From: Nereocystis luetkeana
Taxonomy: Eukaryota > Sar > Phaeophyceae > Laminariales > Laminariaceae
DNA length: 64,000 bases
NCBI GenBank assembly: GCA_031213475.1
Contig: JARUPZ010000005.1
Location: forward strand, 12,285,260-12,349,259
Reading direction: 5' to 3'
Position numbers and translations under genes: made by a program. Each line of letters opens with the position of its first letter. Position 1 is the first letter of the stretch. This document shows, in pieces, positions 13,190 through 32,512 of the stretch. The notes under the pieces are model-generated. The model saw nothing but the letters and a program-made list of their open reading frames with translations. It did no database searches and was not told the DNA's origin.

Positions 13190-16100
13190 GATCACCGTTG
13201 TTGGAGCAGACGCTGCCATTGCCGAGGACGTTTTTCCGCTCCGAGAGCTTAGCCAGTCCGATGCCCCCGTACTCTGAGGCAAAGGTGGCCACTGTGAGCT
13301 TGCGTGATCACTGCGCAGCCTCGACGCCTTGCATCTTCGCCGAGTGCTACAGGCTGTGGTTGTCCCCGGCGTGGTGGATGTCGTGGTTGTCATGCTCGTG
13401 GTGACGGACGCCGTCGTGGTCGTCGTGGCGGTCGCCGTCGTGGTCGTGGTGGCGATACACACACAGGACATGACATGCATCGGATGCCGAGCACCTCGCT
13501 ACGCGAAGGTTTTTCTGTACCGGTACCGTCCGCAACCCTATACCCCGTACTCCGAGACAAAGGTGGCCACTGTGAGTTTTCATGGGCTCCGTGCAGCGTC
13601 GACGCCTTGGATCTCCGCCGAGTACTGCAGGCAGTCGCTGTTAACCGTGTCGGGATTATCATTCTGGTTAGCATGCTCGTGGTGACGTTCACCGTTGTAG
13701 TCATCGTGGCGGTCGCTGAGGTCGTGGTCGTGGTGACAAGATCCGCACAAGACGCGGCATACATCGTCTGCCGAAAAGCTGACCAAGCAGCTGTTGTACT
13801 CTACCAGACTCGTGTGATCGTCGTGGCGGCCGCTGTCGTGAGGAAGTGGCGAGAAACGCACAGGACGCGGCATGCATCGTCTGCCGCAAAGCTTAACACG
13901 CTGCAGGTGCGCCGTACCAAATCCGTGCGCAGCCCAATGCCCCCGTACTCCGAGACAAAGGTGGCCACTGTCAGCTTGCGTGGGCTCCGTTCATCGTCGA
14001 CGCCTTGGACCCCCGCCGACTGCTGCAGGCTGTCGTTGTCGACCGTGTGGCGAGTATCCTCCTGGTTGGCATGCTCGTGGTGACGTTCACCGTTATTGTC
14101 GTCGTGCTTGTCGCTGTCGTGGTCGTGGTAGCAAGATCTGCACAAGATGCGGCATACATCGTCTGCCGAAAAGCTGGCCAAGTTTTCGTTGCATTCTACC
14201 AAACCCGTGTGATCGTCGTGGCGGTCGCTGTCGCGGGGACGGGGCGAGATACGCAGAGGACACGGCATGCATCGTCAGCTAAAAAGCTTAACACGTTGCA
14301 GGTGTGCCCTACCAAACCCGTGCGCAGCCCAATCCCCCCGTACTCCGACACAAAGGTGGCCACTGTCAGCTTGCGTGGGCTCCATGCAGCGTCGACGCCT
14401 TGGACCTCCGCCGACCGCTGCAGGCTGTCGTGGTCGGCCATGCCGCGGGTAATATCCTGGTTGGCATGCTCGTGGTGTCGGTGCCCGTTATGGTCCTCGT
14501 GGCCATCGCTTTCGTGGTCGTGGTGGCAATGTACTCACAGAACGCGGCGAGCATCGTCTGCCGAAAAGCTGGCCAAGCTGCGGTTGTGCTCTACCAACCC
14601 CGTGCACAGCCTAATGTCCCCGCACTCCGAGACAAAGGTGGCCACTGTTAGCTTGCGTTTGCACCGCGAAGCGTCGACGCCTTGGACCTCCGCCAAGTGC
14701 TGCAGGCTGTCGTTGTCAACCGTGACTTGGGTGTCCTGGTTGGCATGTTCGTGGTGACGATCGTCGTTGTGGTCGTCGTGGCGGCCACTGTCGTGGGGAG
14801 GTGGCGAGATACGCACAGCACGCGGCATGCATCCTTTGCCGCAAAGCTGGCCAAGCTGCGGTTGTGCTCTACCAAACTCGCGCGTAGCCTATTGCCCCCG
14901 TACTCCGAGACAAGGGTGGCCACTGTGAGCTTGCGTGGGCACCCCGGAGCGTGGACGCCTTGACTCTACTCCAAATTTTGCAGGCTGTGTTTGTCGCCCA
15001 TGTTGTGGGTGTCCTGGTTGGAATGCTCGTGGTGACGGTCGCCGTCGTGGTCGTCGTGGCCGTCCCGGTCGTGGTCATCGTGGCGATACACGCACAGGAC
15101 AAGGCGTGGCTCGTCTGCCGATCAGCTGACCAGGCGGGGGTTGTGCTGTGCCGGACCCTGCGCACAGTTCAGGTACAGCAAAGCCGCAGCGGGACCAGTC
15201 TCTCGGCAGACGATGCAGGCTGCGATGCAGCGTCCTGTGCGTGTATCGCCACCACGACCACGACGGTTTCGGCCACGACGACCACAACGGTGACCGTCAC
15301 CACGAGCATGCCAACCAGGGCACCCACCACACGGTGGACAACCACAGACTACAGCACTTGGTGGAGGGCATCGACGCTGCGCCGAGCCCACGCAAGCTCA
15401 GAGAGGCAATCTTTGTCTCGGGGTACGGGGGCATTGGGCTGCGCACGGTTCCGGTACAGCTTAACCTCCGCGTGGCCACCTTCTCGGCAGACGATGCATG
15501 CCGCGGCCTGTGCGTATATCGCCACAACGACCACCACGGCGACCGCCACGACGACCACGACGGTGACCGCCACCATGAGCATGCCGACCAGGACACCCAC
15601 AACACGGGGGACAACCACGGGTTGCAGCACTCGGCGAAGGTCCAAGGCCTCGTTGCAGTGCGGTGCTCACGCCTGCTTACAGTGGCCACCTTTGTCTCGG
15701 GCAACGGGTGCATTGTGCTGCGCACGGTTTCGGTACAGCACAACTTCCGCGTGGCCAGCGTCTCGGCAGACGACGTATTAGGCGTCCTATGAGTGTATCG
15801 CCACCACGACCACCACGCCGACCGCCCCGACGACCACGACGGCGACTATCACCACAAGAATGCTAACCAGGATACCCACCACACGGTCGACAACCGCAGC
15901 CTGCAGCACTCGGCGGGGGTCCAAGGCATCGACGCTGCGCGGAGCCCACGCAAGTTGACAGTGGCCACCTGTGTCTCGGAGTACGGCGGCATCGGGCAGC
16001 GCACGTTCCCGGTACAGCACAACCGCAGCTTGGCCAGCTTCGCGGCAGACAATGCCTTGTCATGTCGGGTGCGTATCTCGCCACCACGACTACGACGGCG

Positions 16101-17960
16101 ACCGCCACGACGACTACAGCGGAGACCGTCACCACGAGCATGCCAACCAGGACACCCACCACACGGGGGACAACCGAAGCCTACAGCTTTCAGCGGGGGT
16201 CGAATGCGTCGACGCCTTGGACCCCCGCCAAATGCTGCAGGCTGTCGTTGTTAACCGTGTATTGGGTGTCCAGGATGGTATACTCTTGGTGTCGGTACCC
16301 GTTGTCGTTATCGTGCCGATTGCTGTCATGGTCGTGGTGGCAATATCCGTACAAGACGCGGCGAGTATCGTCTGCCGAAAAGCTGGCCAAGCTGCGGTTG
16401 TGCTCTACCAATCCCGTGCGCAGCCTAATGCCCCTGCAGTCCCAAGACAAAGGTGGCCACTATTAGCTTGCGTTTGCACCGCGCAGCGTCGACGCCTTGA
16501 ACCTCCTCCGATTGCTGCAGGCTGTGGTTGTCGCCCATGTCGTGGGGGGTCGTGGTTGGCATGCCCGTGGTGGGGGTACCCGTTGTCATCGTCGTGGCTG
16601 TCGCCGTCGTGGTCGTGGTGGCAATATCCGTACAAGACGCGGCGAGCATCGTCTGCCGCGAAGCTGGCCAAGCTGCGGTTGGGCTTTACCAAACCCGCGC
16701 GCAGCCTAATGCCCTCGTACTCCGAGACACAGGTGGCCATTGTTAGCTTGCGTAGGCATCCCGCACGCCTCGAGCCGTCCTCCGAGTGCTGCAGGCTGTG
16801 GGTGTCGCCCGTGTCGTGGGTGTTGTGGTTGGCATGCTCGTGGTGACGGTCGCCGTTGCGGTCGTCGTGGCAGTCGTCGTCGTGGCCGTGGCGGCAAGAC
16901 ACGCACAGGACGCGCCGTGGCTCGTCTGCCGAAAAGCTGACCAGGCAAGTTTGTGCTGTGCCGGAACCGTGCGCATAGTTCAGGTGCAGCAAAGCCGCAT
17001 CGTGGCCAGCGTATCGGCAGACGATCCATGCCGCGTCCTGTGCGTGTATCGCCACCACGACCACGACGGCGACCGCCACGACGACCACGACGGCGACCGT
17101 CACCACGAGCATGCCAACCACGACACCCACCACACGATCGACAACCACGGCTTGCAGCACTCGGCGGAGGTCCAAGGCATCGACGATGCGTTGAGCCCAC
17201 GCAAGCTCACAGTGGCCACCTTTGTCTCGGAGTACAGGGGCATTGGGCTGCGCACGGTTCCGGTACAGGTTAACCTCCGCGTGGCCACCTTCTCGGCAGA
17301 CGATGTATTCCGTGTCCTGTGCGTATCTCGCCACTACAACCACAATGGTTACCGCCACGACGCCCTGGACGGCGACCGTCACCACGAGCATGCCAACCAG
17401 GACGCCCACGACACGGAGGACAACCACGGCTTGCAGCACTTCGCGGAGGTCCAAGGCCTCAATGCTGTGCGGTGCTCACGCCAGCTTACAGTGGCCACCT
17501 TTGTCTCGGAGTACGGATGCACAATGCGGCTCACGGTTTCGGTACATTCGTGGCACCGTAACCTCCGCGCGGCCAGCGTCTCGGCAGACGACGTATTAGG
17601 CGTCCTGTGAGTGTATCGCCACCACGACCACCACGGCGACCGCCACGACGACCACGACGGCGACCGTCACCACGAGCATGTCAACCAGGACACCCACCAC
17701 ACGGTCGACAACCACAGCCTGCAGCACGCGGCGGAGGTCCAAGGCGTCGACGCTGCGCGGAGCCCACGCAAGTTGACAGTGCCCATCTGTGTCTCGGAGT
17801 ACAGGGGCTTCGGGCTGCGCACGGGTTTGGTAGAGCACAACCGCAGCTTGGCCAGCTTCGCGCCAGACGATGCATGTCATGTCCTGTGCGTATCTCGCCA
17901 TCACGACTACGACGGCGACCACCACGACGACCACAGCGGTGGCCGTCACAGACCTCGTAC
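13190..17960. repeat. 4.8-kb satellite of ~280-bp monomers in alternating orientation
   Basis: The landmark AGGTGGCCACTGTGAGCTTG occurs in plus orientation near 13281, 13562, 13960, 14354, 14634 and 14914, and again at 16449 and 16731. Its reverse complement occurs near 15392, 15670 and 15950, and again at 17203, 17485 and 17770. Spacing is about 280 bp, with two ~395-bp units early. The blocks are therefore plus (13.2-15.1 kb), minus (15.15-16.2), plus (16.2-17.0) and minus (17.0-17.95). The two minus triplets are a ~1.81-kb higher-order duplication. Units contain GTCGTGGTCGTGGTGGC stretches, so frames on both strands stay open (Val-rich one way, His/Asp-rich the other). The minus-oriented blocks read through several units on the plus strand, but no start, splice or family evidence supports a protein. 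Confidence 0.85.
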
Positions 17961-22103: not shown

Positions 22104-25100
22104 CATAAGTATTATCCCGATATAGCAATGCAAGGCACGAAGGTTCGTGGGGAGGAGAGGGAAGAGCCTACATTTTGTGACCCCGGATCTAAGTTACCAC
22201 TATTGATAGGAAGGAGAGAGAAGGAGGGTGAAGATAAATAAATGGGATGGGGGAAAAAAAACAAGAATCTAAAATCTAAAATAGCGCCGAGGACAGACGC
22301 ATTCGGCCTCGTACAGGAATAGAGTTGGGTATCGCCCTCGCCCGGTAGAGCTGTAATTTTGAGACCCTCCCTACCCCCATTTCCGCGCACCAGGTAACCC
22401 GCAAGAAAGAACAGCTCCTCCGACGAACTTCCAATCCTCGACAACGTGAAGGGCGTACGTAATATGCGCATACTATTGTAGTATGTACTGTAATAAGGGT
22501 CGGTTTTTTCGGAGTTTTTTTACAGAAATTCCAACTTTGGGAAAAAATGGAAAAATTTCATCAAGATGAGGATGAGGCTCATGCTTATCGGAGATTTTTT
22601 TTTTTTTTTTCAGAATTTCCAGAGTTTGGAAATAATTGGAGATATGTATCGAGATACGGAGGCGTTCTGTGACTATTCGCGAAATTCTCCAGAAGCAACA
22701 AAAAACAAAATTAAAGTTCACATATTTGGAAACAAGAATCAGAAAAATCTGGAAGATGAAAATATTGTGCGAAAAAACAAGCAAATTGTGGGGAAAAAGC
22801 TCCCCAATAAGAATGACCCTTACGCGTTCTGTCACGATTTGTGAAACTTAACAGAGGGTACAAGTTGACAGAAAAGTTGAGAAAAAAATCCCATATCAGG
22901 TACTCGTATTCAGGGGGGATACAAACTGAGGAAGGAAGAAACTCTGCAAGATAAAAAAACTGCGCGAAAAAAAAAAATGAAATTACGGAGGGGAAAACTT
23001 TTCAACAATGGCGGCCCTAAACCGCCTTCCATTAAAATATCTCGACCACATATTTGTTGCCGAAGCCGCCATTTTTTTTGGGAGTACCGCCCAATAATTT
23101 GGAGGGAAAATTTGGCTCCGAAATTCGTCCATCTGAAGGGAGGGTGTTATCTTGCGTAGAGATACACCTTGGTATGCGGTACCAGGTACCTGGTATGTGA
23201 TTTGCACGTGTATTTCCGAGTTAGTGATGACCGTGACGCAGCCATGATGATGGCTGTGAAACACACGCGCGGCCGCAAGTGCCTACTAATAATTGGAGGC
23301 TTTCAATGAGACCCGCACAAGAGGGGAGTTTTAGTTGCTGGAATGTGTGAGCGCGAAAAAGCCGCCGGGAGGTGACTGGCATCGGTGTGCCGTGTTCGAA
23401 ACTTGCAACTACTCTTAGGTAGTGTTATTGCTGATGTTTACAGTGCAACTTCGAAATATGCACATACCAGTACAGTGCATGCCCCCGATGTCGCCAAAAG
23501 CGAAAAAGAGTGAACAAAAATTCACGCAACGGGCACACAAGCAGCTACGGGTCTTCGATTGCCCTTCGTCCTTCTCTGGTCCGAACTCCGAAGCCCCCCC
23601 CCCCCCCCAGCCCGCCTCCCCCAAACCTCCCTCCGCACTTAACCGCACCCTTGTCACTGCGAAGCCCATCGTAAGCCCCCTGCCCCGCCAAAAAAAACGC
23701 CCCTTGCCAGTTTCCGCACCCTCGTCGTCACAAAGCCCCCCCACCCCTTCCGCGGCCACACCAGAAAGCAAAATCAATTTACTCGAAGTTGTCATTCATA
23801 AGCAAGAGAGCCCGCCTCGTAATGCGGTTCTTAGCAGGATGCAGCTCACCCTCCATGCAACTCGCCCCAACATCGCACGGTCCTTCGTGTTTGGTGGAAG
23901 CAATACCCCGCCTGATCACTGAAAACCCGACGTGGTGCGCACCGGCATTGCTTATAGGGGTGCGAGGTTCAAAGGTCAAACGATCAGGGCAAGCAACAAA
24001 TGAGTACCCCCCCCCCCCCCCCTCCTCCAATCGCTGCGCTTGCACGACTATGTACCCTCATCGCTACGAAGCCCAACGCCACATCCCATCCCTAAACTTG
24101 TCGGTGAAAATTCGACGCGCTTCGTCCCGGCATTGTACGGATGCGAGGGTCAATCGGAAGACGACGACGGCCATGCATGACACGAGTAATACCCCCCCTC
24201 CCCCCCCCCCCCATCCCCATACCGCCTCCTGCATGTGCCCGCAGCCGCCCTCGGCGCTACGAAGACCATCGCGAGCCGTCGACGTACCGCAGCTGGAGCG
24301 GAGCGAACCGAACCGAAAAGAAGAAGGGGAGAAACAAAACCGAAGCGAAAAAAAAGTAAAGGGACACGAAGCGAGCGGGACGGTGTGGAGTTTCAGCGTT
24401 GTACTGAGTAAAACCTTGCCAAAAATGGGCATTGCAGCTTTCGCTACAGAACCTGGGATTGACGGAAACATAACGTCACACAGATCATGTACAGAAAGAT
24501 CACCTGCAGATGATCTATCTGCAGATAGATCATGTGGCACATGCTACAGTAGAGGTGCACCACTTTTTTCTGCGGCTCCTCACTTGACACTCCTCACCCG
24601 GCAACTGACCTCAGCAAAAATCAAATCGCATCCCATTGCCCAAGTATACAATTACGTCATTTTTCGAAACAAGATCGGCATTCCAACGATTATGGGTCAA
24701 GAAGCCCCCGTCATTCAAAAAACATTCTAGCGGAAATGTGCTACCTCTATCGTTACACGCGTCAGCACTCTAATTTCAAGTGGTTTCGCCCCAATACGGG
24801 ACTCCAGTACTAAAACAAGACAAGTCGCGGCTCCATCTATACATGAAATTTGAAAAACAAAAACAAAGAAACAAAAAAACAACAACAACAACAGCTGTGA
24901 TGAGGTCAAGGATCGTTTTGGCCGAAGCTCGTTTTCGCAAGGTGTGTGTGATACATGAGATACTGCGATCGCGCATACTACGGGTTTTATATGGTCTCGC
25001 GCAGGAAGCACAGTCCGCATATGAGGAAGATAACATCTGAAACTGCAGAATTCAAGGAGTGGGGGTGTATATTTGGGACATAAAGAAAATATGTTTCAGG

Positions 25101-26052
25101 TTGCACGTAGCTTGTCACGAGTGGGCAGTTTCTAGGTGTGTAATTCGTGGGTGTATTTCAAACCTGGTACTACGTGCAGTATTGTACTCACCTGAATCAT
25201 GAATGATCTGTTTACAGATCCCCAACCCGGTACTGTACAAAGGTATGCTATTACCGGCGGATGATTCAGATCAGCAGCTCCAGATCATACAGTTCCCAAC
25301 CGGGAACGCGAGCTATGGGCAAAACAGATGATACGCACACCAGGACGCCTATTGGCCCTCGTGAAATATCTCTACAGGTCATTTAAAAAAAAAAACATAC
25401 GGGTCGATCGATGATATTTTTCCTATGTGTCCAACGTTATGCCTAACAGTATTACGAGGAGGGAGGAAACTAAGCGCTGACCTCTCCTGACGCGTTCTAC
25501 GATAGAGGTAACACATTCCGGCTAAACTGTTTTATGAACCACGGGGTTCCTTAGCCCAAAATCGTCACAATGTCAATATTGCTTCAAAAAATGACGTTAT
25601 TGTATGCTTGAGCCATGGGATTATTCATCGGGATGCAATTTGATATTTGCTTGATGTCAGTTTTCGGGTGAGGTAATGGACTTTTTCAAGTGAGAAGCCT
25701 CAGAAAATTTAGGGTGAACCTCTACTATAGAAAGCCTCTTCTCGCGATGAAAACAAAAGGCGTGCACCCGTAGAGAAGAGTGCCTGCTGTGTGGCTGACC
25801 CCGTATTAGAGTCACGAAAGGGACAAGAGAGCTGCCCAACTACTGTATATAGGGCGAAGAAAATAGATGGAACGGGAGAACAGATGGACATGTGGGAACC
25901 TACATCAAAGTTACGGAAGGGAGAAAGCTGGACAGGTAGAGCGAAGGTGATAGATGGGAAGCACACCAAAAAAGAAAAAGCAAAAAAACACACACACCCC
26001 CCCCCGCTGCTGACGGCAAAATGAAAATGCCTTTTTGGTGATTCAGTTTTCG
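22104..26052. other. Gene-free interval with dispersed repeats
   Basis: Contents: family D copies (22133-22250; about 25740-25970); A/T-rich relatives of the 19748 palindrome arm (22500-23000); two overlapping TACC(A/T)GGTA copies (23180-23195); a half copy of the TTAA-type element (about 24779-24815); and an AGATCATCTGCAG-type mini-array (24480-24540) resembling 39100-39235. Proline-rich frames at 23420-24730 arise from C tracts. No family motif or splice chain supports a gene. Confidence 0.45.
23815..24185 (+). repeat. Dispersed repeat family R, two tandem copies
   Basis: Shared landmarks are AGCAGGATGCAGCTCACCCT, GGTGAAAACCCGAC and GACGGCCATGCATGA. Other copies are at 29638-29880 (minus), 31655-31810 (minus) and 44165-44345 (plus). 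Several are followed or preceded by long C or G tracts. Unit length is about 180 bp and no coding frame is conserved. Confidence 0.65.
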
Positions 26053-26165
26053 ACTATTACGGGGAACCATAGTTAATACGACCTACGGTACACACAAAAA
26101 CCTATACACTTCCCTATTTATACCAACAATATTTGGTCCTATTTACTATGGTCCCCCGTAATAGT
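26053..26165. mobile_element. TATTACGGGG element, single 113-bp copy
   Basis: It starts ACTATTACGGGGAACCATAG and ends GGTCCCCCGTAATAGT, so the termini are long inverted repeats. The interior contains ACCTACGGTACACACAAAAA, as in the 37613 copy. It is non-coding. The short length and Tc1/mariner-like size suggest a miniature element, but the superfamily is undetermined. Confidence 0.75.
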
Positions 26166-26389
26166 CAAAAGCAAATTCAACGCGCTTCCCCAAAAACAAC
26201 GTTGTTTTCATTTTTTTAGTGTCGTTCCTCGATCAAACAGGCCCTTGCGATCAATCCCATCTGGTACCTGATATGCTTTCATTGTCTTGCAAGTTATATT
26301 CCTCTGCCAAACAAGCCCTCATGATCAATATCTATAGGGCCTTACTTTTTTGCTATCATCGCTTTTACTACCCAGCTCGGAACGCAGGA

Positions 26390-26818
26390 GGTCTTAGCCT
26401 CAGCGGTCGTCTTCTGGACAAGCCGTGGTCACACGTGTCATCCCTTCTAGCCCCCCGGTACGCGCCTTCCTGTTAATCGCGCATAGGGTTCAGCATTCCC
26501 ACTGCTCGCCGATTTTCCTCGAATGCCGCTACGGTAGTTCACGCTCTCGCGCTTTCCGCTCATCAATTATTACGCAGCAGTAAATCCAGGGTTGTTTACC
26601 GGTTATGACCCGACCCTCGGGTCGCAGGAGGTCTTCGAAATCTCACGGGTCGGGGCAAGTCATCCTGACCTGACCCGACCCGACCCGCGAGGTTTGACAT
26701 GATCCGTGAACCACCCTGCAAATTTTCCCCAGAAGTCGCATGTGCACTCGGTGGTGATTGCACCCATGATTTTAGTAGGCACGTGGACAACCTTCCAAGC
26801 CACCGGGGGGCGCCGGCT
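26390..26818 (-). mobile_element. SINE-like repeat copy 2, split by a GGGTC element
   Basis: The flanks match the 12826-13113 repeat, including AGCCACCGGGG and GCACTCGGTG of the tRNA-like part. At 26587-26718 a 132-bp insert with ends CAGGGTTGTTTACCGGTTA and its inverted partner ending CACCCTG interrupts it. The insert is a short relative of the element at 1034-3089. No clean target duplication is visible here. The nesting shows that the GGGTC element family moved after the SINE-like repeat had spread. Confidence 0.6.
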
Positions 26819-26831
26819 TACTTTATCGTCT

Positions 26832-29800
26832 TTAAAGATAGCCGACGTACAGCAGTATTTTAAGTAGTACCTGTGGAGCGCTGTCCGCTCCTCCGCTGTT
26901 AACAGCCTCCATCTCATCCTCGCTCATCACAGGCCGTCCGAACATCGCACCGCCCACGATCTGAGAGAAGTCCAGAGCACCTGGGCTGTGCCGATGGCGA
27001 ACGGGTTCGCCATTGTTTGCCGCGATCTGCCGCACGCCAAGCCAGCGCCAACATCCGAACAACGAAAAGACACGCCGAAAAGAAACAACACAAATTAAGA
27101 CAAAACAGAAACCAAATCACAGAAAACAGGAAGCAGAAACGGGGATATGACGATGACGGTGAAGACCCCGGCGAATCGAGAAACTACTACTACTATTACG
27201 GAGGACCATACGAAGTAAATAGGACCAAACATTGTTAGGAAAAATAGGTAAATATATAGGTTTTTGAGTGTACCGTAGGTCCTGTTAACTATGGTCCCCC
27301 GTAATATTACTCCAACCAATAGTACTATTAATAACTACTATTAATACCACTATTAATACTTTTACAACTACTGTTTAGCAAAACTACCCACTACCATTGC
27401 TACTACTGTTGCTACTAGTTCAAGTGCTACTACTGCTGACACTATTGTTATTAGTACTATTAATACTACTACTGAAAACAGGAAACAAAAATCAGACGAA
27501 GAATGCAGATGACAAGTGATGCGGGCCATGCAGGGTGTTGTGCCGTACCAGTTCGCATTATACAATGGTTGTCTGCCTTCTGCGAAAGGAGACAAGAGAG
27601 GGGAGCAGGGAAAAACGGGGGGGGGGGGTACGTAAAACAACGGGATACTTGCCAAACTGCAAATAAACGTGGTGTAAACAAACCAACAACGATGCGCGTT
27701 TGGACTGTCCCTGAGCGTTTTCGACATTTTGCGATTCCATCGACAATTTCGGACGTTCGGTACCATCCCGGGATGCCCTCCGCCCCTCCTCCCTCCTCCT
27801 CACCCTATCCCCTGCCCCTCGCCCCTCCCCCACCTGCTGGCGCTGCTGGATCTGGTGTTCGTGGTGCTGCTGCTCCCGAAGGAAGGCACGCTTTCCGACG
27901 AACTTGATCAGGGGCTCGTGGCGGTTCTTTTTGGGGGCAACGAAGTCGGCGCCGGCCATGAAGGCGCCGGCAAAAGCGTCGTCGAGGTTCGGTTTTTTCA
28001 CCTGTGTTATCGCCGTCCAGCGGAATAACACAACAATACACGAAATCGGGATCGGAATCGGTATTGGTTTCGGTAGTGGCAACGGTATCGGTATCAGTAT
28101 CGGTATCAGTATCGGTATTGGTATCGGTGTTAAAATTGGAATCGACATTGATATCGGTGTCGGCATCGTGAATCGGTAATTGTACTGATATCGGCGACGG
28201 TTTCAATATCGACCATTGTCGGCATCGAGATACATCGGCATCTGTGTCACAGCCAGAATCGGTATCATTTATCGACACTTATCAATCATCGGCATCGGCC
28301 TACATCCGCATCCGCGTCCGAATCGGTATTGATACGTATCTGCAACTATCGGCATCGACAGTGACATCGGGATCGATATCGGCATGCCGGAAGACAGGCA
28401 TCGGAATCGATTGATATAGCGATCGGTTTTCCTCGGTATCAGCCCTTTAGTTGCACCCGCATCGGTGTCGGTATCTATCAGGATCGGTATGGGGTATCGA
28501 AATCGGCATCAACATCGGCGTTGTCATCGTTATCGGCATTTATCTGGATCGGTATGGGCAACTTTATCCGTATCGGCATTGGTATCGATATCGGCATCGG
28601 TATCGACATCGGCATCGAGCTCGATATCGCATCCTATCGATATCGGCATCGGCATTGTAATCGATATCGGTACATTAGCATCGATATCGGCATCGGTACC
28701 CGTATCGGTAAGAATCGGCTTCGTTACATATCGGCATCGGCGTCGACACCGGGTTCTCCCCCGACAGAGCACAAGGTGCAGAGCCCAAAATCATAGATGG
28801 CACCGACACCAGCAAATACACAACAGTACGTACTGTACAACAAATAATTTCCCTACAGTCGTACCACCTTTCCTCTACCCCCCCCCTCTCCCTCTCCCCC
28901 GGAGGATGCGCCTTTCCTAGAGCACAGAAACCCTCGCAACCCACCTCTGGTGGTGGCGCGTTAGCGTCTTCCTCGTCTTGGGCTGCCTGAATCCTCGACT
29001 TCACCACAGAAGCTTCGTCCCCGTCGATCGAGCACAGGGGTTTCCCAACCAGTACCTGCCAGGCACGCACGAGGGGAGAGGGGAGATGCCGTTCCAATTT
29101 GAGCGGCCTCCCAACCCTTTATACCTCCACACCAACTCGTTAAAACGCCACATTGTTGTTTTCCCTGTGATCACAAGCCTACGTTCCGCTTCGAATCCCT
29201 CTTTTTTTCGGACATTTTATCAAAAAGACCCAAACGTTTCCCATCCGGACATGAATAAAAGCAACATAAAACGAAAAAACAACGCGTCTCAGCTGTGCAA
29301 GACCCCCTCCAGCCCCCTCTCAAAAATCGTCTTTGCAGATATCATAATATGAAAAACACAAAAGTCATAACGACAGCCGTCGACGTGAAGCCAACTGACT
29401 GAAGGTTTCGGTTTTTCCGCCGATCGCCCGCAACAAAAGCGACACCTACTGTATGCGTTGTACTCGTGCGTAGTCTTGTACCTGGTATACCCTTGAATTG
29501 AGCACTACTGCACCCACGCTTCGGGGGACACCGCTCGTGTTTCGCAACAGCGAAGATGGATGTCAGAGGAAGCAAAAGGGTGGGGAGGAGAGCGGGGGAG
29601 ATGGGCGGCGGGGGGCAAGGGAGTGTACATACTCACGTCACGCATGGCCGTAGCCGTACGACCATAGACCCGGGGGGGGGGGTGTACCCATTATCATGCA
29701 TGGCCGTAGTCGCATAACCATAGACCCTCGCATCCCTACAGCGCCGGGACGGAGCACGGTCGGGTTTTCACCGACCAGGCAAACATTGACCGCTTGCACC

Positions 29801-32512
29801 GAGCGCGAAGCGCCGTGGGGTGTTCGGCGATTCGCATGAAGGGTGAGCTGCATCCTGCTAAGAACCACTTGAGAGGCGGACTTGCGTATGGGTGACAGGG
29901 GGTGGCCCTCATACGCCAGCAGTGCGGGCAATGTACCTGGTACTCTATTGATAGGCGGACCGCATGTGTGCGTGTGCACCGGGACTCTCCATGCTCGGTA
30001 CGTAGACAAGAGGCCGAGCAGCAGCAAAGTGCGCACGCCCTGATAAGACACCAGCTATGCGTATACCCCCTCTCGTGCACCACCCACCTTTCGAAGGTTG
30101 GTAAGGGTCAATCAACTCTAAGGTACTCACGGGGAGCGATGGTATTCAGAACCCACCATACACCCAGAAAATACATGTCCCCAGTATGTTCATGAACCAC
30201 AGTATTAACAGGTCCTAATGACTGGGTCCCCCCCCTTACTGACTTCAACCTGGACTTTGAACCACGTTATCCTACGCTGGGGGTTGCGGTAATCGTTAAG
30301 TTGGTGTAGGCGTGTCTTGGATAGTCACGCTTACTACGTCGTATAGTCTAGTCTGGTATATTCCAGGCTAGAGGTGTTCCTCGGGGAACCCCACCATTCC
30401 CGACCAGCCCACGATCGAGACACAGCCAGTGACAACTCATACGACCAGCACGACTTACATCGCCCGCGCGACCCACACGACCTACAGGACGACCCACGAC
30501 GATTGGCACGTCTTCGTGCACGCACACGACCAGCACGACCCGCAGGACCAACATGGCGATCCGCACGACCCGCACGACCTCACACGACCCCGGCACGACC
30601 TCGCACGAGTCACACGACCCCACACAGCCTCGCACGACTCGCGCGGCCCGCACGACGACCAAAACGCTTAACCCCTCCCACCCCACACTACATCACACCA
30701 CACCACACTACGCCATACCACATACCATACCATACCCTACCATACCATACCACACCACACCACACCACACCACACCATACCATACCATACCATACCATAC
30801 CATACCATACCATACCATACCACATACCATACCATACCCTACCATACCATACCACACCACACCACACCACACCATACCATACCATACCATACCATACCAT
30901 ACCACACCCACAAGCCCCCCCCCCCCCTAGCTCCTCCTCCCTCCGCCGACGTATATATCGCGTGTGCTCACCACATCGTCCACGGCAGCGAAGAGCTTGA
31001 CCACGACCCCCACGTGGGTAGAGCGGACCTCGACGCTGACCTTGTCCGTCTCCACGACTGCAATCACCTCGTCTTCCTTGACCTCGTCCCCGACCGACTT
31101 GCACCACTGCACTACCGTGCCCTCAGAGATAGAGTCACCCAGGCTTGCCACATCAAGGAAGGAGGTGGGGGTTGGATGGTGATGTGGGTTTTTGCAGCGG
31201 GGGGGAGGGGGCGGGAGGGGGTACAGGGGAGAGGAAGGGGAACGGGGGGGGAGGGGGGGTTGAATTGATGAACTGATACCCTGTGGACGGAGTTGCAATA
31301 GGAGAGGAGGGGAGTGGAAGGGGGGAGGAGGGAGGGCGAGGGGGGGGTACGCATGGACATGCGGAAGCCCGGGGGGAGGGGGGGGTATGATGTACGAATA
31401 GCTCCATCACTGGGGACGGCGGAGCGGGGAAGAGGGGAGGATGAGGGATAAATGCGTCAAGGTGGGGGAGACGGGGGGGGGATACATCGATGGGGGGGAG
31501 GGACGAGAGCTCGGACGGGCGACTCATCCCGATCGAATCAAACGAAATTAAACGCCAGGCAGAGCAGAATGTGAGGAGGGGGGGGGAAATGTCAAGATTG
31601 GCAGAATAGGCGCGGGGGGGGGGGGGGCTGGATAGGAGATATGTACTCGATCTCATGCATGGCCGTGGTCGTATGACCATAGACCCTCGCATCCCTACAA
31701 TGCCGGGACGGAGCATGTCGGGTTTTCACCGACCAGGCAGACATTGCTTGCACCAAGCGCGAAGCGCCGTCAGGTGTCCGGCGAGTCGCATGAAGGGTAA
31801 GCTGCATCCTACTATTACGGGGACCATAGTCAATAGGACCTATGGTATACATAAAAACCTACCAGGTATATAGTTAACTATTTTTAGCAACAATATTTGG
31901 TCCTATTAACTATGGTCCCCCGTAATAACAACCGCTCGGGAGGTGGACTTGCATATGCATGGCATCTTCTGTGGGTTAATATAATTTCTGGTGTAGCCAC
32001 TCCCAGAGACAGCAATGGGAGACTAATTTAACTGCCTCTTGGGTGCCTCTTCATAAGCACTACGTGTACGTGATACGACCATTCCCACTTGTGCGGAGTA
32101 AAGGTTGTGAAGGGATGGGGGAGCGGGGGGGGGGGGGGTCGACAACAGAGAAAGGGGGTGGCTGTCCTCTTTTTCTACACCCACAAACCCTAACCGCTAT
32201 CTCCCTCCCCCCTCAATCCTCCCTCTCCCTCCCTCCCTCTATCCTTTTAAGGTCTTCACCATCACCAAAATCTCACCCTGGAAGATTCATCACGTGCTCG
32301 TCCCGGAGCGGAGAAGAAGCTCGGAAACTTCCGAGTCTCCGATCCGTCCGGAGGACGCCGACCGCTGGCGATGGAAACCCGCCCACTCCAGCCACCCCGC
32401 GTGCCGCAGCGATGATGCTGCTTGACGCCGACCGAGACTGCTGTGGGAAGGCGAGAAAAAGAAACCGGTATTGTTTTTTTCGGCGTGCGGTGGTGGTTGC
32501 AGTTGCAGCCAT
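26832..32512 (-). CDS. Mitochondrial lipoyl-domain protein fused to KGD4/MRPS36-like E3-recruiting segment
   Basis: The predicted product (293 aa) has five exons: complement of 32277-32512, 30972-31143, 28945-29055, 27834-28001 and 26832-27026. Phases match at every junction (2, 0, 0, 0). Residues 1-78 form an Arg/Ser/Ala-rich mitochondrial presequence. Residues about 80-155 are a lipoyl domain of the 2-oxoglutarate dehydrogenase E2 type, starting LGDSISEGTVVQW, with lipoyl lysine K113 in VVETDKVSVEV. After a charged linker, residues 201-211 (HEPLIKFVGKR) match the conserved N-terminal motif of KGD4. Residues 263-277 (MSEDEMEAVNSGGAD) match its C-terminal E3-binding end. No E2 catalytic domain is seen on this strand downstream. 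KGD4 is known to tether E3 (dihydrolipoamide dehydrogenase) to the E1/E2 core in mitochondria. A fusion would act like an E3-binding 'protein X'. Alternatives: exons 4-5 are a separate KGD4 gene starting at M188, or exon 5 splices on after residue 281. The weakest junctions are the exon 2 and exon 5 acceptors. Confidence 0.7.
27192..27309. mobile_element. TATTACGGGG element in intron 4 of the lipoyl-KGD4 gene
   Basis: It has ACTATTACGGAGGACCATA at the left and GGTCCCCCGTAATATTA at the right. The interior is inverted relative to the 26053 copy (GTGTACCGTAGGTCC lies on the right). It is immediately followed by a loose ACTATTAATAC microsatellite to about 27470. Confidence 0.7.
28040..28760. repeat. 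Imperfect ATCGGT/ATCGGC hexamer satellite
   Basis: Units of GGTATCGGTATCGGCATCGG type run through nearly all of the 943-bp intron 3 of the lipoyl-KGD4 gene. TATCGATATCGG stretches make local palindromes. Apparent Ile/Gly/Asp/Arg-rich frames on both strands are repeat translations. Confidence 0.8.
29638..29880 (-). repeat. Dispersed repeat family R, copy in intron 2
   Basis: On the minus strand it carries AGCAGGATGCAGCTCACCCT, GGTGAAAACCCGACCGTG and CATGCATGA, matching 23815 and 44165. It is flanked on the promoter-distal side by a G tract (about 29670-29680). Confidence 0.6.
30430..30905. repeat. CACGACC repeat followed by a (CCATA)n pentamer satellite
   Basis: From 30430 to 30660, loose CGCACGACC units recur. 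From about 30675 to 30905 the sequence is almost pure ACCATACCATACC with interspersed CACCA. The array ends 67 bp before the 5' splice site of exon 2 of the lipoyl-KGD4 gene (GT at 30971-30970 on the minus strand), so it lies just inside intron 2. Long Tyr/Trp/Gly or Pro/Tyr/His frames here are artefacts. Confidence 0.8.
31655..31928. mobile_element. Family R copy adjoining a TATTACGGGG element (intron 1)
   Basis: 31655-31810 is a minus-oriented family R copy. At 31811 it is interrupted by ACTATTACGGGGACCATAG to GGTCCCCCGTAATAAC, the ~118-bp inverted-repeat element, with one TACCAGGTA inside it at 31860. Sequence after 31929 (CGCTCGGGAGGTGGACTTGC) resumes the family R context seen at 29860-29885 (TTGAGAGGCGGACTTGCGTA), so the short element inserted into family R. 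Confidence 0.65.

Follow-up and report, generated by a model that had tools for sequence, protein, structure and literature searches.

A predicted fusion of an E2o-type lipoyl domain to the KGD4/MRPS36 adaptor in Nereocystis luetkeana and other ochrophytes

The gene described here, located on the minus strand of contig C5 of Nereocystis luetkeana, is predicted to encode one polypeptide in which a lipoyl domain (LD) of the E2o type precedes KGD4/MRPS36, the adaptor of the 2-oxoglutarate dehydrogenase complex (OGDHC). Most likely, with a probability of roughly 0.8, the product would act as a non-catalytic, E3BP-like fourth subunit of the mitochondrial OGDHC, which anchors on E2o, holds E3 and carries a lipoyl arm of its own. 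The way in which the eukaryotic OGDHC holds E3 has been worked out only recently, in animals and fungi. An adaptor that naturally bears a lipoyl arm represents a ready-made test of the adaptor's part in catalysis, and if this arm is lipoylated and reoxidised via the tethered E3, the adaptor belongs to the reaction path. The protein would then, if the proposal is true, be a convergent counterpart to E3BP.

The window, i.e. the whole stretch of 64 kb that was analysed (C5:12285260-12349259), contains the gene at 24257-32512 in six exons. Its features are listed below; the protein ends that contact E3 and E2o are assigned from published cross-links (PMC9974300, excerpts).

32277..32512, minus strand: exon 1, with the ATG start at 32512 and the donor GG/gtgaga in phase 2; Arg-rich presequence-like N-terminus and first residues of the lipoyl domain
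30972..31143, minus strand: exon 2, body of the lipoyl domain (LGDSISEGTVV...AAVDDV)
31041..31043, minus strand: codon of the predicted lipoyl lysine K113 in ETDK (ETDK at 31041-31052)
28945..29055, minus strand: exon 3, final strand of the LD (VLVGKPLCSID), followed by a charged linker
27834..28001, minus strand: exon 4, linker and KGD4 N-terminal motif
27888..27920, minus strand: HEPLIKFVGKR, KGD4 N-motif, the E3-contacting end of KGD4/MRPS36
26871..27026, minus strand: exon 5, C-terminal half of KGD4, donor CAG/gtacta (end corrected)
26886..26924, minus strand: SEDEMEAVNSGGA, KGD4 C-motif, the E2o-contacting end
24257..24292, minus strand: exon 6, LRYVDGSRWSS and stop TAG, acceptor ctccag

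All introns are of the GT..AG type, the phases match at all five junctions and the frame is open; introns 2 to 5 measure 1916, 943, 807 and 2578 nt. A preliminary description of this DNA had given a five-exon gene with a 293-aa product, and its start at 32512, the exons 28945-29055 and 27834-28001 and the length of that translation were all reproduced from the letters. The presequence-like N-terminus, the lipoyl domain, ETDK, HEPLIKFVGKR and EMEAVNSGGA that it named are likewise present in the product. While these exons and their phases stand, the sixth exon at 24257-24292, which lies beyond the coordinates then considered, had been overlooked. Moreover, exon 5 ends at 26871 with the CAG/gtacta donor instead of at 26832, and the last 12 residues of the earlier C-terminus are intron read-through past this donor. 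The corrected product has 292 aa. Its ending LRYVDGSRWSS is also found in P0001 and, nearly identical, in Ectocarpus (P0002), P0005, Scytosiphon (P0006) and Pylaiella (P0007).

Over the aligned parts, the product is 68-92% identical to the continuous proteins of five relatives, the nearest named ones being brown algae. P0001 (218 aa, 92% identity) was read from a contig of 969 nt, which is too short for introns 2 to 5 (intron 2 and intron 5 each exceed this length) and is therefore probably a transcript. The first 60 residues of the product contain 10 K/R and 1 D/E, together with a short hydrophobic stretch (FLFLAF); this presequence-like part of exon 1 is matched in P0002 and P0005, and P0001 as well as the models P0006 and P0007 begin at an internal Met ahead of the LD. 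Furthermore, the predicted exons of several distant relatives begin, judged by eye, at the exon 2/3 boundary of the window gene (e.g. Q-VEVGANLL in P0128 and Q-VVVGQPLY in P0176), which suggests a shared intron position.

Both halves of the product are recognised by profiles, as the preliminary description had anticipated. PF00364 matches residues 74-146 (E=6e-18), and the best NCBIfam profile is sucB/E2o (residues 76-225), with 76.6 bits against a full-length cut-off of 378.65, a shortfall that is expected because the catalytic domain is absent. The ETDK lysine does not vary among the 17 rows of alignment A2 (product included), which contain PF00364 in 17/17 and PF10937 in 15/17 cases (E<=0.01). 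Structural information comes from an AlphaFold2 model of the Ectocarpus relative P0002, calculated with 39 relatives, and not of the window product itself; its overall pTM is only 0.38. The LD of this model reaches a pLDDT of approximately 95 and places the ETDK lysine (K131) between the strands 123-128 and 133-137. The hallmarks of an E2-type lipoyl domain are thus present, i.e. the PF00364 match, the lysine on a beta-turn and, in the fold of P0002, the flattened barrel. A helix (167-185) follows the LD, and the KGD4 part consists of blocks with pLDDT of approximately 50-80 and short helices. The Foldseek matches of the model, including the top ones, are mostly lipoyl and biotinyl domains; for the KGD4 part there was no credible match among solved structures (best E 0.073, a ParM hybrid). 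By its profile matches, the fused domain is classified as a predicted LD of the E2o type.

The KGD4 part carries both motifs of this family, the N-terminal HxPLI[KR]Fxx[KR] (HEPLIKFVGKR) and the C-terminal E[MI]xxxxSGG (EMEAVNSGGA). PF10937 (Kgd4-YMR31) scores 24.1 bits with the exon 4-5 piece and 21.2 bits with the whole product at a cut-off of 22. To avoid circularity, we also built a KGD4 HMM from ten stand-alone, LD-free proteins, namely the fungal P0201, P0202, P0208, P0209, P0216 and P0219 and the similar P0211, P0212, P0214 and P0218. It matches the window product with E=1.3e-7 in a set of 210 sequences (209 database proteins and the product), and gave 0 matches at E<0.01 in the shuffled set. 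The linker from the LD to the KGD4 N-motif measures approximately 54 residues, with the LD N-terminal to the E3-contacting motif. Since the protein comprises 292 aa with a lipoyl domain and is not a small stand-alone protein, it should be regarded as a variant of KGD4/MRPS36 and not as an ordinary member.

The preliminary description had also stated that an acyltransferase domain is lacking, and this agrees with our searches: no PF00198 match (catalytic or E2-like core) was reported in the product, and no DHRxxDG acyltransferase motif occurs in the six frames of the 64 kb, a search in which an intron-split copy would be missed. PSBD (PF02817) was found neither in the product (E up to 10) nor in the 17 rows of A2 (E up to 0.01). 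We also considered a triple fusion of LD, KGD4 and E2, with KGD4 as an inserted PSBD substitute, but rejected it, since the window has no unsplit DHRxxDG and the C-terminus is conserved. The E2 proteins with strong matches contradict it as well, because 90 of these 91 DHRxxDG proteins have two LDs and none (0/91) matches the KGD4 HMM; the excess of two LDs has to be read with the ranking of the protein list by lipoyl-domain score, which favours such proteins. Many of the DHRxxDG proteins are named as oomycete, and they are labelled succinyltransferase or, in some cases, acetyltransferase.

The host possesses a separate DLST gene, as the preliminary description had proposed to check. Profile searches of the host genome (465 Mb, 1987 contigs) gave PF00198 matches on five contigs (C2, C8, C16, C23 and C39) and PSBD matches on C2, C8 (two), C23 and C39. 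The C16 locus is E2o-like, with an LD starting VPSMGDSISEGTIVNW, an Ala/Pro linker, YDHRLIDGREAV and the motif DHRLIDG; only one LD was seen there and no PSBD was found, although an intron-interrupted copy may have escaped detection. With its own LD, the catalytic motif and no detected PSBD, C16 looks like an ordinary eukaryotic E2o. The location of the host's E2o catalytic domain on another contig speaks against the refuting case named earlier, in which exons 1-3 are spliced to such a domain. Eukaryotic E2o lacks the PSBD, and Hevler et al. proposed that KGD4/MRPS36 replaces it (both PMC9974300, excerpts). A search of the host genome with PF10937 yielded 0 candidates and missed the window gene itself, so that absence of a further copy is not shown thereby. 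A separate observation concerns the 21-Mb contig C2, where an intronless 468-aa E2p-like frame (G000:C2:16826451-16827854) contains LD, PSBD and catalytic domain, in contrast to the remaining four E2 loci, where the matches are split. The frame may be a retrocopy, a transfer or a contamination.

The fusion is not particular to this organism, as had been supposed, but lineage-wide and found in several ochrophyte groups. A full LD together with a KGD4 match (E<0.01) and without DHRxxDG was found in 38 of the 210 sequences (window product included), a proportion that gives no estimate of natural frequency, because the set was collected by searches with fusion sequences and near-copies (P0105/P0106, P0109/P0118, P0173/P0174) were counted separately. 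These searches comprised a six-fusion profile search (best 120 of 1353 matches, 7991 candidates scored) and a KGD4-part profile search (107 matches among 7993 candidates). The same domain order, LD then KGD4 in a single polypeptide, occurs in continuous proteins and transcripts of related genomes, with fusions in Ectocarpus sp., Scytosiphon, Pylaiella, Tribonema minus, Chrysoparadoxa australica and, by name, a chrysophyte (EukProt P0206). Fusions were also found in MMETSP P0175 and P0205, which are labelled as transcripts of type complete, and in many Logan, JGI and ENA contigs. Incomplete relatives are E. fasciculatus (shortened model), Laminaria digitata (LD tail only) and Discosporangium (C-motif missing). 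Both Pfam domains are already precomputed in nine database proteins (P0106, P0115, P0118, P0129, P0141, P0146, P0147, P0155, P0213), yet the Tribonema entry is named "single hybrid motif-containing protein" and P0106 is named E2 component by JGI. Hence, the LD-KGD4 architecture is apparently present in databases but unrecognised, and gene annotations should be corrected because some fusion proteins are named "E2" or left nameless. In studies of ochrophyte evolution, the fusion could possibly serve as a marker character.

A full LD is missing from 69 KGD4-positive proteins, of which 28 have an LD tail directly upstream and 41 have none by pattern. Among the latter, P0157 and P0183 have LD tails by eye and others look like exon fragments, while P0152, P0164, P0179, P0182, P0189, P0194 and P0199 have a true stand-alone appearance. 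LD-less KGD4 thus probably exists among the similar sequences. A different arrangement is seen in P0068 (329 aa), in which two lipoyl domains are followed by a KGD4-like tail (VPSIHFRHGKR ... DEDEMMLIEMGGAL); it was left out of the 38, since its E=0.058 with the stand-alone-KGD4 HMM is above the threshold of 0.01. Similar tails occur in P0186, P0210 and P0217.

Regarding the origin of the fused LD, a full LD tree was calculated from 90 rows, among them 32 fusion LDs and 28 of the 91 DHRxxDG proteins. In it, a group of 40 rows unites DLST LDs, the host's included, with one P0068 row. The labels cluster, yet the fusion LDs need 5 changes and do not form one group, and several very long branches meet. 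For a reduced tree 25 rows were dropped, i.e. 11 long or odd ones (5 fusion, 1 E2p outgroup) and 14 divergent DLST. Here a branch with support 96/92 splits 27 fusion LDs from 38 DLST LDs, the host's included. This split favours one origin of the fused LD, on approximately 73 usable columns and with rows picked after the first tree was seen. The idea that the fused LD is a recent copy of the host DLST LD is not supported by these trees.

The proposed function follows the published cross-links of MRPS36, with the N-terminus to E3 and the C-terminus to E2o, in mammals and, as cited there, in yeast (PMC9974300, excerpts). The C-terminal KGD4 motif would anchor the protein on the E2o (DLST) core, and the N-motif (HxPLIKFxGKR) would hold E3. 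The N-terminal E2o-type LD on its linker would form an extra swinging arm tethered beside the bound E3. Situated approximately 54 residues N-terminal of the E3-contacting motif, it is placed to visit the E3 of the same chain, and a flexible linker would allow visits to E1o too. Generally, acyl groups and electrons pass between lipoyl arms. The additional arm could receive its charge from E1o or through exchange with the lipoyl arms of E2o, and be reoxidised by E3 on the same polypeptide. An adaptor function of the product is likely, and for an active relay arm we see close to even odds. The preliminary description had combined lipoyl arm and E3 docking in one chain: the domains do lie in a single polypeptide, whereas lipoylation of the lysine and docking of E3 are predicted from homology, and docking to E2o, the mitochondrial location and the arm chemistry are likewise predictions. 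However, addition of MRPS36 to human cell lysates gave no activity gain in a study cited in PMC8146983 (excerpts), hence even the role as adaptor is open to some dispute. More tentative still, at slightly less than an even chance, is the wider picture that the ochrophyte OGDHC has two classes of arms, those of the E2o core and adaptor arms relaying to the tethered E3, and that the E3BP solution was reinvented from the KGD4 peptide once, in the ancestor of brown algae, Tribonema, Chrysoparadoxa and chrysophytes.

Several known systems resemble the product in part. KGD4/Ymr31/MRPS36 ("E3BPo", a name used in PMC10203282, excerpts) shares PF10937, both terminal motifs in the same order and the presumed binding of E3 and E2o, but its described members are small and without LD, as are the ten stand-alone rows from which the HMM was built (six from named fungi). 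E3BP/protein X of the pyruvate complex is likewise a non-catalytic chain with a lipoyl domain and an E3-binding element; however, it is a paralogue of E2 that is inactive and contains a PSBD (PMC9974300, excerpts), and the product has neither a detected PSBD nor an E2-like core. With E2o (DLST/SucB) it shares the LD type, but lacks the acyltransferase, and its LD stands apart from DLST LDs in the reduced tree. Neisseria P64K, found among the structure matches (1gjx, 5u25), also bears an LD on a non-E2 subunit, in that case on the E3 enzyme itself and not on a presumed E3 adaptor. Chaetomium thermophilum KGD4 is fused to holocytochrome c synthase, a different fusion (PMC10203282, excerpts). The preliminary description knew of no described protein with the LD-KGD4 arrangement, and none was found in the excerpts from the open-licence literature searched (PMC9974300, PMC10203282, PMC8146983, PMC7050145, PMC13311838).

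Three other explanations have to be weighed against the E3BP-like subunit. The protein could be an adaptor as in other eukaryotes, in which the LD either provides a further contact for docking or anchoring to E1o, E2o or E3, or stores lipoate. The host DLST has an LD of its own, which makes an extra one unneeded for basic turnover, and a structural role of "unloaded" LDs has been discussed (PMC10203282, excerpts). A purely structural LD would, however, be expected to lose the ETDK lysine somewhere, but it is kept in every row of A2, and we regard this explanation as unlikely, though it is the most probable of the three. Considerably less probable is a role in another complex, be it the 2-oxoadipate, the branched-chain or a hybrid one. 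It is true that E3 is common to several complexes and that a hybrid OGDH-DHTKD1 complex was reported in human cells (reference in PMC8146983, excerpts), but the LD is E2o-like with sucB as best NCBIfam match, the DLST exon scored best of the LDs at the five E2 loci, and a PSBD is present at each of the other loci.

It is very improbable that two genes, one with the LD exons and the other a stand-alone KGD4, were wrongly joined. The window evidence is genomic, and the models of Hapterophycus (P0123) and Ascophyllum (P0124) start inside exon 4, without LD. Against this, the phases match at every junction, P0002, P0005, P0014 and P0039 run from presequence to KGD4 without interruption, and both halves are joined in short contigs and MMETSP transcripts and occur together in the 38 sequences. 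Separate transcripts for LD and KGD4, named earlier as a refuting case, therefore disagree with the proteins and transcripts of the relatives.

Elsewhere in the window, nine neighbouring ORFs were scanned and gave no functional link; the single match, to TFIIA, stayed below its cut-off. On both strands at 13298-17916 there are long, overlapping open frames in which His/Asp-rich peptides (HHDHDGDRHDDHDGDRHHEHA) recur; the one frame that was scanned had no Pfam match. The introns of the gene contain a 93-nt inverted pair (26055-26147 and 27214-27306, 88% complementary) and direct repeats that are 84-90% alike (26103-26163/31867-31927 and 29683-29860/31642-31814); these dispersed repeats are possibly remnants of small mobile elements. 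Intron 2 also carries a tandem array in 10-nt steps (tggtatggta type, 30663-30916), and an imperfect gccgata-like array extends over much of intron 3 (approximately 28050-28760).
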